A stretch of DNA of 23,059 nucleotides, taken from a virus. The stretch covers positions 1 to 23,059 of IMG/VR virus record IMGVR_UViG_3300046692_000407; one strand, written 5' to 3'. Shown in pieces: positions 2,725 through 8,856 of this stretch. The notes under the pieces were generated by a model. It did not search any database. It was not told where the DNA came from and saw only the letters and a list, made by a program, of their open reading frames with translations. Positions within the stretch are counted from its first letter, which is position 1. Each line of letters opens with the position of its first letter. The position numbers and the translations under genes are program-made.

Positions 2725-3627
2725 TCAAAGTGAAAGAATCGGCAATCCCAGCACATGAGCTCTATCCAACAGCCTATGTTGGGGCACACCTATACAGAAA
2801 GAATACTTCACCAACAATTCTTTTAAATGATCAGTACCGCAAACCACTGCATAATAAAAAATTAACAATTTTTCCGAATCCGAGAAAAGCGATTTATACA
2901 TATCTATATATAGCTTATTACCTTCCAAAAACGAATCAATATATGACAGAGTTATTTCGACACCTGCCATGTATTGCTGCAACTCCTCACCATCATTTTG
3001 CCAAAAATGATCAAAAGCGATAACAAGCCCTCTAAGCTCATCTCTACGTGGCTTTATATTTAACAGCCCGATCACTGTAACGTTCGGATTATCGGGTAAA
3101 GCCGTACTTTTCACAAAAGACGAATGAAGCCTCTTGCAAAAAATCTTTATACAGTCACGCCCCTTTGTAACTTTATTATTACTATCAACCAAGTCTATGG
3201 CGGCCAACGCTGCCATATGCGTATCAATCATTTTATAGAAGGTCGCGACCGAGCTTTGCAGTTTGAAATTCTCAACCTGCTGATCTAGCGCATTTGCGGA
3301 TTTAGCCAGCTCGACACGAGATTCCTTTAATTCCACCCTTTGTATGGTGATAGTTATCAAAAGCCCCATAAAAGCAAAAAATGTCAGTATTGGGTTAGTT
3401 ACCCCTCCAAAAAAATCCCCAAAAACACCTGATGAAAAAAACTCTTCCTTTGACCGAACCGCGATTACAACATCCGCAATAAAAACAACAAAAATCACAA
3501 CTACAGCCGCAACAAAAATACGGTAAAGCTTTCGGACCCCATCCTCTTCTCCCGGAAGCACCAACGCTTCAAACCACTTATATGGAGCACTCAATAGTTT
3601 TTTTAAAAATCCATTTTTGCTGTCCAT
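2725..3627 (-). CDS. putative phage abortive infection protein (putAbiC-like), membrane-anchored
   Basis: A 300-aa protein inserted between tail genes I and J. Two membrane helices are visible at about residues 37-57 and 77-96. A charged, coiled-coil-like stretch follows (97-125), then a conserved-looking TFYKMIDTH segment (129-137), a GRD at 156-158, and a soluble alpha-helical C-terminus. This arrangement (two N-terminal helices, NPILTFFAFMGLLITI, then QR.EL and TFYKM) matches my memory of the putAbiC family, described as putative phage abortive infection proteins; I could not run a profile search. The start is supported by TTGGAG upstream. The gene is clearly AT-richer than its neighbours and has its own terminator. 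A TAGAAT box at 3666-3671, overlapping the end of gene I, could be a -10 element. Likely role: superinfection defence expressed by the lysogen. Confidence 0.72.
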   Translation of the reverse strand: MDSKNGFLKKLLSAPYKWFEALVLPGEEDGVRKLYRIFVAAVVVIFVVFIADVVIAVRSKEEFFSSGVFGDFFGGVTNPILTFFAFMGLLITITIQRVELKESRVELAKSANALDQQVENFKLQSSVATFYKMIDTHMAALAAIDLVDSNNKVTKGRDCIKIFCKRLHSSFVKSTALPDNPNVTVIGLLNIKPRRDELRGLVIAFDHFWQNDGEELQQYMAGVEITLSYIDSFLEGNKLYIDMYKSLFSDSEKLLIFYYAVVCGTDHLKELLVKYSFCIGVPQHRLLDRAHVLGLPILSL

Positions 3628-3661: not shown

Positions 3662-4270
3662 CTACATTCTATCCTCTGCGTAAATGGATGCAGAGATGAT
3701 CATCCCACCCCACCGCCTTTCGCCGATGCAAATCGGCACCGGATTGCCGCTGGCCGTGGTGTTCTTAGCGCTGCCGAAGGCGTAGGACGGTGCGTTTTCG
3801 GGGGATGCGCTCTGCTTCAGGCCGGAGGCCTGCGGACTGAGCATCTGAATGACGCCGCCAATTGCCATAGACGCGCCAGCTGCATACAAAAACGGTGATG
3901 CGGCTGCAAACGGAGTGAAGGACAGCACATAGGCTGCGGCGATCATGACTGTGCCGATGATGGTCTGCAGGTCACCAGCACGCTTGCTGCCACCAATCAC
4001 CGGAACAATGCGGATTTCCCGTGTGCCGCCGAGATCGAATCCGTCTATCCCGATGTTTGCGCGATTCCGGAAGATCGCAAACTTCAGCCCAAGGCGCTCC
4101 AGTCTTTTAATTTCATCGGCGAAACCATCAATGGTCGCATTGAGCGCACGGAACACCTCTACGGCCGATCCGCCGTCGAGAAGGAATTGCTTGCTTCGAA
4201 AAAACTTCTTGGCGAGCGAACCGGACAGCATCACTTTCGTCATTGGCGTGTAGATAATTGCTGAGCACAT
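3662..4270 (-). CDS. I: tail tip assembly protein I
   Basis: A 202-aa homologue of lambda gpI, a tail tip assembly protein acting with gpK and gpJ. The N-terminal half is a beta-grasp-like region (KVMLSGSLAKKFF at residues 11-23, a FRALNATIDGF segment near 40). A hydrophobic alanine/glycine-rich segment at about 105-143 (VMIAAAYVLSFTPFAAA, then GGVIQMLSPQ) is typical of the family. The C-terminus carries a NPVPICIGERRWGG motif also typical of gpI (PVP.lYG-like). The start is chosen from CTGGAGAATGGC upstream. The gene lies just after the terminator of the lipoprotein gene and 34 nt before the putAbiC-like gene. In lambda, K and I are adjacent; here about 3.8 kb of cargo separate them. Confidence 0.88.
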   Translation of the reverse strand: MCSAIIYTPMTKVMLSGSLAKKFFRSKQFLLDGGSAVEVFRALNATIDGFADEIKRLERLGLKFAIFRNRANIGIDGFDLGGTREIRIVPVIGGSKRAGDLQTIIGTVMIAAAYVLSFTPFAAASPFLYAAGASMAIGGVIQMLSPQASGLKQSASPENAPSYAFGSAKNTTASGNPVPICIGERRWGGMIISASIYAEDRM

Positions 4271-4285
4271 GCCATTCTCCAGGCA

Positions 4286-4310
4286 ATAAAAAACCGCCCG
4301 GAGGCGGTTT
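4286..4310 (-). terminator. Rho-independent terminator of lipoprotein gene A
   Basis: On the minus strand an 8-bp perfect stem (AAACCGCC/GGCGGTTT, 4-nt loop) runs into a T-rich tract. It starts within 3 nt of the lipoprotein stop and ends about 15 nt before the start codon of gene I. The sequence CTCCAGGCA next to it on the plus strand is repeated next to the terminator in front of J. Confidence 0.85.
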
Positions 4311-4312
4311 GT

Positions 4313-4735
4313 TCAGAGAGTAGTGGGCAGTATGTCGATCTGCCCATCGCCCCCGGTAAAAACTCGGTATTTCTTGATCGCGCCATCTTTCACGATCGCT
4401 TCCCGTTCCACTCGGGCTGCGCCCATGGAGCAGATGCCAGAGCCGGTGTAAGCGGCGCCAACTGAAACCGAATCAGGTGGTAGATAAAACGATGCCTTCT
4501 GGCCAGGGTCGAGCTTTGCGGCTTGTTTTCCATCGATGAAAACGGCCATTGAACAAAGGCTTCCAGTTTGTCCAGAGTCGCGGATCACTTGCAGTGTCCC
4601 GTATGCGCCTGATGGCTTGGCCTGGTAAGCCGACAACTGACTGGACGGCGCCTGCTTGGCTTCATTGGAAGGCGTTGGCGAAGTCGCACACCCCGCCAAC
4701 AGCGCTACCGCCAACGCTCCTAAGATCAATTTCAT
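4313..4735 (-). CDS. small lipoprotein, module A
   Basis: A 140-aa predicted lipoprotein. The signal peptide MKLILGALAVALLAGC ends in a clear lipobox (LLAGC, Cys16), so the mature protein should be lipidated and held in the inner or outer membrane. The mature part has a Ser/Ala-rich linker (17-43), then a compact beta-rich domain with a pair of cysteines (in GSLCSM and GICSMG) that could form a disulphide. It has the look of small prophage and Pseudomonas lipoproteins with a DUF2846-like fold, but I cannot assign a family. Start: the ATG at 4735 has AAAGGAG eight bases upstream; a GTG at 4744 would overlap that site. Its first 16 codons and upstream region are almost identical to those of the lipoprotein gene at 6513-6863, while the rest is unrelated. 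Prophage lipoproteins of this kind can act in superinfection exclusion; that is only an inference here. Confidence 0.75.
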   Translation of the reverse strand: MKLILGALAVALLAGCATSPTPSNEAKQAPSSQLSAYQAKPSGAYGTLQVIRDSGQTGSLCSMAVFIDGKQAAKLDPGQKASFYLPPDSVSVGAAYTGSGICSMGAARVEREAIVKDGAIKKYRVFTGGDGQIDILPTTL

Positions 4736-4868: not shown

Positions 4869-5087
4869 ATGACCACCAAATATGCGTTTGACGAAGAAGC
4901 GGCAATGAAACTTGATGCTGCTTACGCAGTGATTATCGGGCTAGTAAGTATCGTCCAAGATGACCCGATAAAATTGCAGTCGGCTAAAAAAATCGCATTG
5001 GCATCCTTAGGATCAACTCATTCAGAATACATTAAAACCGTGCAAGGAAAGGTTAGTGCGATTTTATCATTTAACCCATCAAAATAA
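4869..5087 (+). CDS. 72-aa protein of unknown function, module A
   Basis: A small, probably soluble alpha-helical protein with no membrane segment, signal peptide or motif I recognise. It lies on the strand opposite to the tail genes, first in a two-gene unit with the 314-aa gene 94 nt downstream. No strong ribosome binding site precedes the start, but the position of the ATG matches that of the 178-aa gene in the homologous module (29 nt after TAGTAGCGT in both), which supports the start. Base composition is AT-richer than the tail genes. It could be a partner or antitoxin-like regulator of the next gene, but nothing in the sequence proves this. Confidence 0.6.
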   Translation: MTTKYAFDEEAAMKLDAAYAVIIGLVSIVQDDPIKLQSAKKIALASLGSTHSEYIKTVQGKVSAILSFNPSK

Positions 5088-5181: not shown

Positions 5182-6126
5182 ATGACATTAAAAAACATCA
5201 GCTCTGAATCTCAACCCACAGAAAAGAGAAAGCCGCTTTCTGAGTATTTTGATTACATATGTGACTTCCATCATATAGATATGAATTTAAAAACAAACTA
5301 TGCCAGACAAAAATATCATGACGATTGGATGAGGAAATATCAAATCGCAATAGCCGACTGGGTAAGCTATGACATCACCATCTGGGCTACTCGACTGCGA
5401 CAGTCACTAAAACTTTGCTTCAGCGCCACTTATTTTGCACTAGAATCAAGAAAAGCCCAATCAAACAGATCAATGGCTTCCGCGTATTACTTGGGATATT
5501 ACTCTGCCTTACACGCAATGTGGGCAGTTATTTATCTTGACCCGCAGCAATCCACGAAAAACGTCTACAGCATTACCCACTCAAAAATCCTGAACTTATT
5601 TCATTCTACGTACGCCCATGGGAATAACAGTCCCCTGCAGGTGAACACGAAGAAATTCATCGAAAATTTGCGCTTTCTACGCGAGTACTATTCTTACCGC
5701 ATGCCTCTAAACTCGCCATTTCAAGGAGATGCCGAGTTAAAAAACGCATTAACCTCGCTGGGTGGATTCGTGAAACAATGCATTCAGCTATCGCACTTGC
5801 AATCTCACTTAATAATGAAGTCCGCTTATAAAAAAAGAAAATCATCCGCATCACTCCCCTACAATTCGAGACAGCAGTTCATTCAAGAATTCTCCTTAAT
5901 AAATGGAAAAGAGCGCGAATCAAACAAAACAATAATACTTGACCCCTCAGATAAATCAGCACTACACGAGGCCATTAATCAAGGCTGCGACATCATGGCC
6001 CACAGCATATCTTACGATCATATGTTTGATGAATATATGACATACGATGATGATCACACACCTATTGGTGCCATTGTAGCTGAAGCCAGAACGCTTGTTG
6101 GGGCGGCACTTTATGGCAGGCCCTAA
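5182..6126 (+). CDS. 314-aa protein of unknown function, possible HEPN-like helical fold
   Basis: This AT-rich gene in the K-I cargo block encodes a soluble, mostly alpha-helical protein. Residues 100-112 (SAYYLGYYSALHA), a THSKILNLF segment at 132-140 and LRFLREYYSYRMP at 163-175 recall the order of helices in HEPN-type domains (AYYAxxHA, then KTH..., then LR..R.YY). No canonical HEPN RNase motif (R-x4-6-H) is seen, so a catalytic role is doubtful and the resemblance may be superficial. The C-terminus (DPSDKSALHEAINQGCDIMA) is charged and not recognised. There is no clear Shine-Dalgarno before 5182, so the start could be later, for example near 5281. Opposite strand, skewed composition and position in a moron hotspot suggest cargo, possibly defence or host modification. 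Confidence 0.62.
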   Translation: MTLKNISSESQPTEKRKPLSEYFDYICDFHHIDMNLKTNYARQKYHDDWMRKYQIAIADWVSYDITIWATRLRQSLKLCFSATYFALESRKAQSNRSMASAYYLGYYSALHAMWAVIYLDPQQSTKNVYSITHSKILNLFHSTYAHGNNSPLQVNTKKFIENLRFLREYYSYRMPLNSPFQGDAELKNALTSLGGFVKQCIQLSHLQSHLIMKSAYKKRKSSASLPYNSRQQFIQEFSLINGKERESNKTIILDPSDKSALHEAINQGCDIMAHSISYDHMFDEYMTYDDDHTPIGAIVAEARTLVGAALYGRP

Positions 6127-6168: not shown

Positions 6169-6305
6169 CACAAGTAGAACAACTGATGCAGACCATCACA
6201 CGCCGGGCTCAATAACAGCGCCGCGGTCATGTTCAGCTCGCATTTTCTAACCGTCCATACCCTCCAACGGCAACTGAGGACTCGACGCGCCCGGCTATTA
6301 CCTTC

Positions 6306-6480
6306 TTATTCCTGCACCCATTTCGCCGCCGGGCCGCATGATTTGCTGGTAGGTGCATCTTTGTGCCTAAGGATCAGTCGCGAGCGGTCGAGCCACGGAC
6401 CGCCGAAGACAATGACATCAGGCGCTAGTCCGTACATATGGTGTAAAGAACGGGCAAAAACCGAACGCTGCGGCATGCTC
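6306..6480 (-). pseudogene. relict 3' end of a second tail assembly gene K
   Basis: On the minus strand, frame ending at the TAA at 6306-6308, the translation contains HHMYG, then DVIVFGGPW and RLILRHKDA, aligned with HHLYG, EVIVFGGPW and RLILRHKDA at the end of the intact gpK gene at 8092-8856. The similarity continues upstream as AAAFG (intact: AATFG) but in a different frame, because about 2 nt are missing near 6446-6450. It stops abruptly at about 6480, right next to the terminator of lipoprotein gene B. The fragment has a different C-terminal tail (PTSKSCGPAAKWVQE) from the intact gene, so it comes from a diverged K allele, not a recent copy. No start codon or ribosome binding site belongs to it; it should be non-functional. 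Confidence 0.85.
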
Positions 6481-6487
6481 GAAACAC

Positions 6488-6507
6488 AAAAAACCGCCCG
6501 ATGGCAA
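6488..6507 (-). terminator. weak terminator of lipoprotein gene B
   Basis: On the minus strand TTGCC/GGCGG (five pairs, two of them G-U, 4-nt loop) is followed by six T. It begins a few bases after the lipoprotein stop codon. The right-hand side (AAAAAACCGCCCG on the plus strand) is the same as in the intact terminator at 4286-4310, while the left-hand arm has diverged, so this is a decayed version of the same element. Confidence 0.5.
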
Positions 6508-6512
6508 CTCTG

Positions 6513-6863
6513 TCAAAGACATTTATTCACAACTTCGGCTCGTCGGTTTTTACGCCAATCCATCAGTCCAGACGTGAAATACAATTCAACGCGGCTTCCA
6601 TTTGAAGAGTTCTTAAAATCCGCAAACTCAATCTGGCCTGCGCTTACGACTGTTTCACCACTATCAGGTAGCGGCTGTACAAAGACGTCGTAATGCGCCC
6701 CAGCTATGGACTGATTCTGCCAGCCATAGAGAACACATTCGGCCACAGTATTAGCATCTTTTTTACTGTTAAATGTTTTCCATGGCCCGTCAGCACGACG
6801 CTCGCTCATTGAGGCACAACCAGCCAACAGCGCTACCGCCAACGCTCCTACGATCAATTTCAT
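6513..6863 (-). CDS. small lipoprotein, module B
   Basis: A 116-aa predicted lipoprotein. Signal peptide MKLIVGALAVALLAGC with lipobox LLAGC (Cys16) differs by one residue from that of the lipoprotein at 4313-4735. The mature part is unrelated to it: a Lys/Asp-rich segment, two cysteines (in AECVLYG and the C-terminal NKCL) and a beta-rich middle. It resembles short phage and bacterial lipoproteins in which AECVLxxW precedes a beta domain, but I do not assign a family. The start is the ATG at 6863 with CAGGAG eight bases upstream; upstream in-frame codons to 6956 are non-coding promoter sequence, as the homologous module shows. It is followed by a weak terminator and the gpK relict. Confidence 0.75.
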   Translation of the reverse strand: MKLIVGALAVALLAGCASMSERRADGPWKTFNSKKDANTVAECVLYGWQNQSIAGAHYDVFVQPLPDSGETVVSAGQIEFADFKNSSNGSRVELYFTSGLMDWRKNRRAEVVNKCL

Positions 6864-6974
6864 CCAGGTCACTCCTGTGGGAAAGGAGAGTACTGTAGCG
6901 CGGCACTGTCCGGGCATCCAGCGTGGATGGAATGCCAGTGGCAAAATTGGATCCATAAGTAGTAGCGTTATGCC
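6824..6974. repeat. duplicated 5' cassette, copy B
   Basis: This is the second copy of the element at 4696-4845: 53 nt with two differences over the signal peptide and ribosome binding site, then colinear blocks through the divergent promoter region. Copy B additionally has a dyad CATCCA/TGGATG (6915-6929) that is not conserved in copy A. Confidence 0.85.
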
Positions 6975-6997
6975 TTATTTCTTTTGAAGGATCCGGT
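6864..6997. promoter_or_regulatory. divergent promoter region between lipoprotein B and the 178-aa gene
   Basis: This 134-nt region is homologous to 4736-4868. On the plus strand TTGGAT (6947-6952) and TATGCC (6969-6974) are 16 nt apart, and TAGTAGCGT lies at 6960-6968, again 29 nt before the start codon. On the minus strand CTGGAT and TACAGT, about 18 nt apart, are candidates for the lipoprotein promoter. The dyad CATCCA-GCG-TGGATG at 6915-6929 may be an operator. Promoter positions are inferred. Confidence 0.5.
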
Positions 6998-7534
6998 ATG
7001 GATCTCGCTACTGATTTACCTAGCTACAAAGATCTGTATCTCCCTGTTCTTGTCGCTTTGGCTTTTTGGGGCTTCAAAAAAGCTTTCGTTCCCGCACAGC
7101 GCTTTGTAGGGAAAGCCCTTCGAAAGTCTCGCAGCAAAGAGCTGAAAAAGGCGAAAGCGATTCGTGTCGATGCCTTCGCTGTACAGCGACAGCTTCAGAA
7201 AGAAGGCGCGCTTTTCGGAGCGTTCATGTTGTCAGCAATCGTATCGATGGGAGTCATGTTAATAGCGCTTCAAACGACTTCTTCAACAAGTCGAGTCTTT
7301 TACCAACTCGTTTACATGGCTCCGCCGCTCGCGCTAGAAGTGTGGTGGTTATCCCAGAAAACGTTTGTTGAGACGCTCCTTCAAGAAGCCAGTCGCCTTG
7401 GACATGGATTCACAAGAACCATCCCCTCCAGATATCGCTCGCCTAGGCGAGCAAAAGATCGTGAAGTTCGACAAGAACAAATCAGGATCGTGAAGAAAAC
7501 GAAGACCACTTGGAGGCAAATCAAACAGTGCTGA
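6998..7534 (+). CDS. 178-aa membrane protein of unknown function, module B
   Basis: This plus-strand cargo gene has GAAGGA upstream of the ATG. Hydrophobic segments at about residues 13-29, 71-92 and 102-118 predict three membrane helices. Between the first and second lies a basic cytoplasmic-type loop (LRKSRSKELKKAKAIR), and the last 40 residues are rich in Arg and Lys (RYRSPRRAKDREVR), so the tail is probably cytoplasmic. I do not recognise the family. It occupies the place in module B that the 72-aa gene has in module A and is followed by a hairpin and the 67-aa gene. A small inner-membrane protein encoded in a moron is compatible with superinfection exclusion, but that is inference. Confidence 0.68.
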   Translation: MDLATDLPSYKDLYLPVLVALAFWGFKKAFVPAQRFVGKALRKSRSKELKKAKAIRVDAFAVQRQLQKEGALFGAFMLSAIVSMGVMLIALQTTSSTSRVFYQLVYMAPPLALEVWWLSQKTFVETLLQEASRLGHGFTRTIPSRYRSPRRAKDREVRQEQIRIVKKTKTTWRQIKQC

Positions 7535-7547
7535 TTGCTTTTAAATA

Positions 7548-7580
7548 CCCAGTCCTTTGCCTGCAAGCCCAAGGACTGGG
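7548..7580. other. strong hairpin between the 178-aa and 67-aa genes
   Basis: A 10-bp perfect inverted repeat (CCCAGTCCTT/AAGGACTGGG) with a 13-nt loop begins 13 nt after the stop at 7534. It is followed by a second short repeat, GCGCC/GGCGC at 7584-7599. No T-run follows on either strand, so this is not a classic terminator; it could be an RNA-stability element, an attenuator for the 67-aa gene, or a protein-binding dyad. Confidence 0.55.
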
Positions 7581-7620
7581 ATTGCGCCAATTTCGGCGCG
7601 GATAACGCAAGGAAAGTGAA

Positions 7621-7824
7621 ATGAGCAAAGAGCTGCCAAAAGATCCAGAAAATGAAGGCTGGGTACTCGGCTGGGGTGTTGTCCGCAATGCGCCTTGGAG
7701 CTTTATTGGCATTTATCAAAGCGAAGACGAGGCAAGATCCGCAGCGAATAATGCTGGAGAGGGCTACTTGGTACATCACGGATCGCACAAGCCAGGAACA
7801 GATGATTTCGTCTGGACTTCCTAA
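7621..7824 (+). CDS. 67-aa protein of unknown function
   Basis: A small soluble protein preceded by AAGGAAAG, a good ribosome binding site. The aromatic-rich N-terminal half (GWVLGWGV, APWSFIGIY) followed by SEDEARSAA and GYLVHHGSH suggests a small alpha/beta domain; I do not recognise the family. It is probably co-transcribed with the 178-aa membrane protein gene 86 nt upstream. Its stop codon overlaps that of the convergent tail-operon gene at 7821-8066 by 4 nt (CTAA). Confidence 0.65.
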   Translation: MSKELPKDPENEGWVLGWGVVRNAPWSFIGIYQSEDEARSAANNAGEGYLVHHGSHKPGTDDFVWTS

Positions 7825-8066
7825 GCCAGATTCGTGAGCGTAACGGTCCCGGGGCCGAAGGTGATTTCGGCTCTTAGCCCAGGCTTTCCAATGTAGCCGC
7901 GACTATGGCCATCACCGCCGGGGCCGACTTTGCCCTTGAAGTTCAAACGGTCGATTTCAATATTGTCGTCGAGGACAGAGATCACAACTTCTGCACCCCG
8001 CAGCGCCCCGCAGGACGCAGTAAATAAATCTCGAATATTCAATACGTAGTTCTGAGTGACTTCCAT
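7821..8066 (-). CDS. 81-aa protein of unknown function downstream of K
   Basis: A small protein on the tail-gene strand, 25 nt after the end of K. The start at 8066 has GGGAGCAGGAA upstream; an earlier ATG at 8111 lies inside the end of K without a better site. The N-terminal half reads as an alpha/beta segment (VLNIRDLF, VVISVLDDNIEIDRL), the C-terminal half is glycine-rich (GPGGDGHSRGYIG) and ends in a beta-strand-like stretch. It could be an accessory tail protein or cargo. I cannot assign a function. Confidence 0.6.
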   Translation of the reverse strand: MEVTQNYVLNIRDLFTASCGALRGAEVVISVLDDNIEIDRLNFKGKVGPGGDGHSRGYIGKPGLRAEITFGPGTVTLTNLA

Positions 8067-8091
8067 TTCCTGCTCCCGCGGCCGTGCCGCA

Positions 8092-8856
8092 TCAGGTGGT
8101 TGGTTGTGCATCTTTATGCCGGAGTATCAGGCGTGTTCTCTCATGCCACGGACCGCCGAACACGATGACTTCGGACGGCCTGCCATACAGGTGGTGAAGC
8201 AGGAACGGACCGGGTCCGAACGTTGCTGCGCCCTCACCGGGCAAAGCCGGATCAGCGCCTAGGAAAATCCCGGCGTGGTTTGGGTAAACCGTGCGCCCCA
8301 CTTCCATCACGATCATGTCGCCGCGCTGCGGCTGGTCGACGCGGTAGAAGCCGGCGGCCTCGTAGTTCGCCTCGTACAGACTGGTGTTGTCCTTGCTCTC
8401 CCACCAGCCATCGGCGCGTTTGAAGGCTTCGAACTCCAGCCCCCACTCGCGCTTGTACCAATCCGCGCAGACCTGCCAACAGTCCCACGCGCCGTGCACG
8501 AAAGGCCGCTTCAGTAGCGGCACCTCGCCGGACGGTATGACCGTTCGAAGATCGCCTTCGGGCCAGCTCAGGATGTGCCAAGGCAACGCAGTCGCCTCGC
8601 ACATGGCCAGGTCGCGCGGTGACGGCCTGCTGGTGGCGTCCGGATGCGAATGAACTACACCAATCACCTCCCCGACGTCCTCGGCCGCTGCGTACTCCTC
8701 CGGGTCGATTCGAAACTCTTCGTTCGGCTCAGTAGAGACGTTGCGGCACGGGTAGTACTGCTGCTTTCGACCCACCGCCAGCAGCAACCCGCAGCACTCT
8801 TTCGGGTACTCGGCTGCCGCGTGCGCCTGGATCGCATTCAAGATGTGCTTTCGCAT
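8092..8856 (-). CDS. K: tail tip assembly protein K (JAMM plus NlpC/P60)
   Basis: A 254-aa lambda gpK-type protein, active in tail tip assembly. The N-terminal domain is a JAMM/Mov34 metalloprotease-like fold with the full metal motif: Glu20, His69 and His71 (VVHSHP), Ser79 and Asp82. The C-terminal domain is NlpC/P60-like, with the catalytic Cys126 (GAWDCWQVC) and His194 (NHAGIF), typical of peptidoglycan-cleaving cysteine peptidases. Ribosome binding site AAGGAG precedes the ATG. It lies directly after L, as in lambda. A relict of another K 3' end occurs at 6306-6480. Confidence 0.93.
   Translation of the reverse strand: MRKHILNAIQAHAAAEYPKECCGLLLAVGRKQQYYPCRNVSTEPNEEFRIDPEEYAAAEDVGEVIGVVHSHPDATSRPSPRDLAMCEATALPWHILSWPEGDLRTVIPSGEVPLLKRPFVHGAWDCWQVCADWYKREWGLEFEAFKRADGWWESKDNTSLYEANYEAAGFYRVDQPQRGDMIVMEVGRTVYPNHAGIFLGADPALPGEGAATFGPGPFLLHHLYGRPSEVIVFGGPWHERTRLILRHKDAQPTT

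Follow-up and report, generated by a model that had tools for sequence, protein, structure and literature searches.

The DNA between two cargo modules of a lambda-like temperate phage holds a dead copy of the 3' end of tail gene K, and we judge, with a probability of about 80%, that this relict is a scar left by two successive recombination events. The window, that is, the whole stretch of DNA analyzed here, comprises 23,059 nucleotides (positions 1 to 23,059 of the IMG/VR virus record IMGVR_UViG_3300046692_000407) and is a fragment of this phage, whose late genes are read from the minus strand. Two cargo modules, A and B, lie between the intact K and tail gene I (Table 1). The relict copies the last ∼120 nt of K, lacks the 5' portion of the gene, contains a frameshift, and runs on the minus strand from 6477 to ∼6340.

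For comparison, we obtained 80 loci by a K search of IMG/VR and 13 loci by a lipoprotein B search, for which the 3' flanks (L086-L098) were compared, and we added loci from genomes of the genus to which L101, Pseudomonas palmensis, belongs. In total, 132 K loci were compared, a few of which were fetched twice and some of which are short downstream.

The K relict and its surroundings

Modules A and B are built alike, each with plus-strand genes (at 6998 and 7621 in B and at 4869 and 5182 in A), a control region, and a minus-strand lipoprotein gene. A terminator-like hairpin with a T run behind lipoprotein B and a conserved control element upstream of it were recognized from sequence only. This element consists of ACGCTACTAC, ∼20 nt of spacing, and TACTGGCATTCCATCCACGCTGGATGCCCGGACAG with the inverted repeat ATCCA-TGGAT, and it is found between divergent cargo genes and the lipoprotein in many loci; at 6890-7000, it is probably a shared promoter/operator of the cargo modules. 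PADLOC gave no defence annotation for the cargo genes. On the upstream side, a conserved border made up of the K end and its linker, TGATGCGGC-N-GCCGC-GGAG-ATG, is present at 8066-8099 of the window and in ∼42 K loci; it places a short hairpin and a ribosome-binding site directly before the variable cargo. On the downstream side, lipoprotein A with gene I is a common arrangement. Variation in the lipoprotein beside gene I is correlated with variation in the first 130 residues of gpI (window 3662-4732 and 87 loci; Mantel r 0.66, 0 of 999 permutations), which could reflect plain linkage or a lipoprotein matched to the tail-tip protein. An extra gene between I and J (2725-3627) is weakly similar to the putative abortive-infection family putAbiC (E 0.0016, below the cutoff), and a 95% identical copy of it occupies the same place in L064. 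A scar of another kind was seen in L036 (3445-3540), where a lipoprotein leader remnant cut just behind the lipobox lies between two modules, so that the scar is at the leader and not at K.

Table 1. Features of the K-I region of the window
Feature	Position	Strand	Basis
Intact tail gene K, 254 aa, JAB and NlpC/P60 domains	8092..8856	-	Pfam Prok-JAB 1.4e-19, NLPC_P60 1.1e-7; phrog_30 minor tail protein
First ORF of module B, 96 aa, overlaps the K end; starts in the conserved K linker GATGCGGC..GCCGC..GGAG	7821..8111	-	phrog_38193
Opposite-strand genes of module B: 6998-7534 (178 aa) and 7621-7824 (67 aa)	6998..7824	+	Same genes in L021, L104/L134
Control region, conserved, separating lipoprotein B from the divergent module genes (ACGCTACTAC ... 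ATCCACGCTGGATGCCCGGACAG)	6890..7000	.	53/158 loci, at most 6 substitutions
Lipoprotein B, 119 aa, lipobox LAGC	6513..6872	-	phrog_914
Lipoprotein B terminator and what is left of the ribosome-binding site found before gene I in lipoprotein B homologues; old joint ∼6477/6478	6478..6512	-	3' flanks of L086-L098
K relict, 5' part (66 nt), common to all five carriers	6412..6477	-	92-100% identical among carriers; best match among 132 intact K genes ∼73%
K relict, 3' part, other K-tail type (RLILRHKDA), K stop lost; younger joint ∼6383-6412	6339..6411	-	73-79% to other carriers, 90% to the L069 intact K; L134 similarity ends at 6387
Remnant of K linker and decayed 60-aa ORF (ORF 3' of K in L020, L007, L009, L072, L076)	6180..6338	-	Sequence alignment
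Module A gene, 314 aa, no relatives in the collections searched	5182..6126	+	No match in any search
Module A small gene, 72 aa	4869..5087	+	ORF list
Lipoprotein A, 139 aa	4313..4732	-	phrog_890 lipoprotein; full-length in ∼20 K-I loci
Tail gene I	3662..4270	-	phrog_32 tail assembly protein 5.6e-61

A first-pass annotation of the window had described a frameshifted, 5'-truncated K fragment between the two modules at 6306-6480, and the alignments agree with this description. The reverse strand of that interval matched the 3' end of the intact K (8077-8229) with 69% DNA identity (E 1e-12); the local alignment scored 61, whereas none of 200 shuffles exceeded 18. Both the VIVFGGPW and RLILRHKDA motifs were found in the relict translation. 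A 2-nt gap disrupts the reading frame, and the K stop codon is changed from TGA to TCA (6341-6339). As the annotation had stated, the homology stops beside the lipoprotein B terminator, the end of which lies ∼10 nt from the relict start at 6477. The interval does contain the fragment and is slightly short, since similarity continues beyond the K end to ∼6180 through a K linker and a decayed 60-aa ORF, the same order as behind the intact K in L020. This post-K part alone scored 27 against L020 (shuffle maximum 16 in 500 shuffles). The ORF begins MHTQPHDAAS... and has relatives 3' of K in L007, L009, L072, and L076. Because the window aligns with both the linker and the 60-aa ORF of L020, the remnant corresponds to the K end, the linker, and the first small cargo gene of another phage. 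What we find at the module border is, in short, a truncated and non-functional K copy in a phage that also has an intact K.

Carriers of the joint and the two parts of the scar

Lipoprotein B is present at an identity of at least 97% in four other records, namely L086, L068 (= L087), L088, and L134 (G027), the last being a genome of the genus Pseudomonas. In all four, the same joint leads into a K fragment. Only five of the 132 K loci contain a second K fragment, in each case immediately behind lipoprotein B, and a search of Pseudomonadaceae genomes gave no further copies of the scar besides that in G027. In more distant homologues of lipoprotein B (56-68% identical; L089-L093 and L095-L097), the terminator leads to a ribosome-binding site and the start of gene I. 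The carriers retain the terminator and, in L086, the GGAG, and then continue with K sequence. Since they leave the gene I flank for K after the terminator, one side of the joint is the gene I start and the other lies within K, and the two have only a few bases in common. Independent K scars behind other lipoproteins were absent from the 132 K loci, yet ∼20 of 96 complete K-J spans hold at least two lipoprotein-like ORFs (a pattern-based count in which some are false and some lie behind gene I), which implies that stacking mostly occurs by another route.

The fragment itself is made up of two parts with different relatives. When it was cut after CTGATGTCAT, the 66-nt 5' part (6477-6412) was 92-100% identical among the five carriers and reached ∼70-73% at best to any intact K. 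The 3' part of the window is 73-79% identical to those of the other carriers, but matches the intact K of L069 at 47 of 52 positions (90%). For the other four carriers, the 3' parts match the intact K of L085 at 47-50 of 52 positions (90-96%). The 3' parts follow two of the K-tail types seen in the group. In type 1, RLVLRHK.A[QR] or a close variant is followed by the stop codon, and a lipoprotein ribosome-binding site lies 18-19 nt past the stop in 9 of 9 cases; in type 2, RLILRHKDAQ..T and the stop are followed by GCGGC..GCCGC..GGAG and a small cargo ORF. The scar tail is of type 1 in L086, L068, L088, and L134, where it precedes three different lipoproteins, whereas that of the window is of type 2 and precedes module A.

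These identities also bear on the origin of the fragment. The annotation had taken it for a diverged K allele on account of its own C-terminal tail, and this was upheld: the identity is 69% to the K of the window against 90% (47/52, 3' part) to that of L069. Together with the 97.6% identity of the L088 scar region to L085, this indicates that the remnant came from another lineage and not from a local duplication. Accordingly, we give a negligible probability to a tandem copy of the resident K and to an assembly artefact. Apart from the presence of two K ends nothing speaks for either, the relict is 90% identical to K alleles elsewhere, and the same joint recurs in separate metagenome contigs and one genome assembly. 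Tandem duplication of the window's own K is in fact ruled out by the 69% and 90% values.

The closest relative of the window is L134, with 99.5% identity from 6387 to ∼9700 (3.3 kb) and 95% identity to 15848. The match to the window breaks off at 6387, within the scar, and resumes farther on in the gene I 3' part and J. Because the similarity ends inside the scar, the two phages differ by a replacement of everything behind a point in the scar. The switch in parental similarity falls at ∼6383-6412, within the FGGPWLDR-coding stretch that is conserved in nearly all K genes. As judged by these alignments, the scar is a two-step chimera, with a 5' part from one old event and a remainder that varies with the downstream module. 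The divergence of the 5' part from intact K genes need not be decay, as this part could derive from a distant K allele instead.

Conservation of the 5' 66 nt (92-100% in five carriers) is what one would see if the fragment were kept for a function, for example as a small peptide, a regulatory RNA, or an extra terminator. However, it is no higher than the conservation of the neighbouring lipoprotein B, and the fragment is frameshifted, has lost the K stop in the window, and has a 3' part that was swapped between carriers. We consider retention for a function very improbable.

Parental arrangements and proposed order of events

The first-pass annotation had read the fragment as a recombination joint between two stacked modules, and the existence of both kinds of parent supports this reading. 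Parents without the joint are represented by L085, L060, and L020 on one side and by L010, L021, L089-L093, and L095-L097 on the other. From the conserved stretch of its scar through the next lipoprotein, L088 is 97.6% identical to L085 over 796 bp, and in L085 the same K end belongs to an intact K. L086/L134 and L060 are 84% identical over 1350 bp, and L020 aligns across the scar, linker, and small ORF of the window. A relict-free parent with K and module B had been predicted and was found in L010 and L021, both of which reach gene I via another lipoprotein. The prediction of a parent with K' and its module was borne out in part. The arrangements of L085 (compared with L088), L060, and L020 are of this kind, but an intact K followed directly by the 314-aa module A gene was found in none of the viral contigs, phage and plasmid records, and 399 genomes of the genus. 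Of the module A side, only the K end with linker and small ORF (L020) and the lipoprotein A-gene I end were seen elsewhere, and the immediate donor of the window K tail is unseen (best match 90% over 52 nt).

We propose the following two steps. The first, old and shared by the carriers, would have started from a phage with K, a module, and lipoprotein B. Just behind the lipoprotein B terminator, at the ribosome-binding site/start of gene I, this DNA would have been joined to the K gene of another phage (K') by illegitimate, out-of-register recombination. The last ∼120 nt of K' and its module would have been kept, giving two modules in series with a dead K end between them. In the second, younger step, seen in the window, the dead K end would have resembled intact K 3' ends enough to serve as a homology arm. 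A crossover at the FGGPWLDR-coding stretch (∼6383-6412) would then have replaced the rest of the scar and all behind it with DNA of another phage, from its K tail through the linker and small ORF to module A. The window tail and module A are most simply viewed as the later arrival because the other tail is found in four of the five carriers, the closest relative among them; most likely, module A was brought in by a crossover inside the existing fragment. On this parsimony argument, the illegitimate joint would precede the exchange. Downstream cargo seems to have been exchanged repeatedly with the K remnant as the homology arm, and homologous pairing at the scar may have driven these exchanges.

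The annotation had put forward a simpler course, in which a resident K'-module A-I and an incoming K-module B were joined within K' in a single event. Such an event would yield the same order of parts, and both parental arrangements exist in kind, but four other records combine this 5' joint with a different K tail and other modules downstream, and the closest relative diverges from the window within the scar and not where the scar begins. A single joining is thus unlikely. The stacked-module model is right in outline and too simple in its history, which involved at least two recombination events with the scar itself as a crossover site.

A circular DNA carrying a K end and module B could also have entered by a single crossover in K, which would leave direct repeats of the K end around module B. 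Copies of the K end do flank module B in the window; they are, however, only 69% alike, and the downstream copy is a different allele that starts with an illegitimate joint at the gene I start. No free cassette was seen, and the insertion would not itself account for the differing downstream tails, which makes this route quite improbable.

Comparison with known phage mosaicism

Across the five carriers, three other modules and module A follow the same scar. We suggest tentatively, at somewhat less than even odds, that the scar may act as a reusable landing site, into which new modules would plug by homologous recombination with any phage of the group while the working tail genes stay untouched, and that it would raise the stacking and turnover of modules. 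In this Pseudomonas phage group, the borders map to the 3' end of K together with the linker, to the leader of the lipoprotein, and to the 3' part of gene I.

The modules resemble phage morons in being small genes that lie between tail genes, with a putative control region and terminator. They also resemble superinfection-exclusion lipoproteins, such as mEpimmI Lpp (PMC11893012), in having lipoproteins in the structural cluster; of the features of such lipoproteins, it is the lipobox and this position alone that are seen here. Unlike both, the window has two modules in series, each with opposite-strand genes.

According to De Paepe et al. (PMC3945230), exchange between temperate phages is homology-driven and tolerates high divergence, and the recombinases use short, diverged homology, with a minimum of 30 bp for Red-beta. 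A Red-beta-like or other temperate-phage recombinase may have acted at the scar. The likeness to mosaicism by Rad52-like recombinases (PMC3945230) is that crossovers at short conserved boundary sequences swap the genes between them; the difference is that one boundary here is a dead gene fragment, a homology arm copied into mid-cargo.

The literature searched, which did not extend to the classic novel-joint papers, gave no specific precedent for scars of tail genes. Leftover gene fragments occur at the novel joints of mosaic phages. The K scar shares with these joints a truncated gene end at a module border, few shared bases at the joint, and the presence of an intact copy. In lambdoid phages and mycobacteriophages, mosaic novel joints are ascribed in general to illegitimate, out-of-register recombination (PMC3029335). 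The scar differs from them in that its relatives allow it to be ordered: several records share the joint, and there are known parents in which the K end is intact. As a rule, phage mosaicism is deduced solely from the borders that exist today, whereas parents, joint, and later exchanges inside the leftover fragment form one natural series here, which makes the dead gene end as a homology arm for cargo exchange a testable idea. Taken together, these comparisons show that the K-end scar is a case of known phage mosaicism, unusually well resolved.
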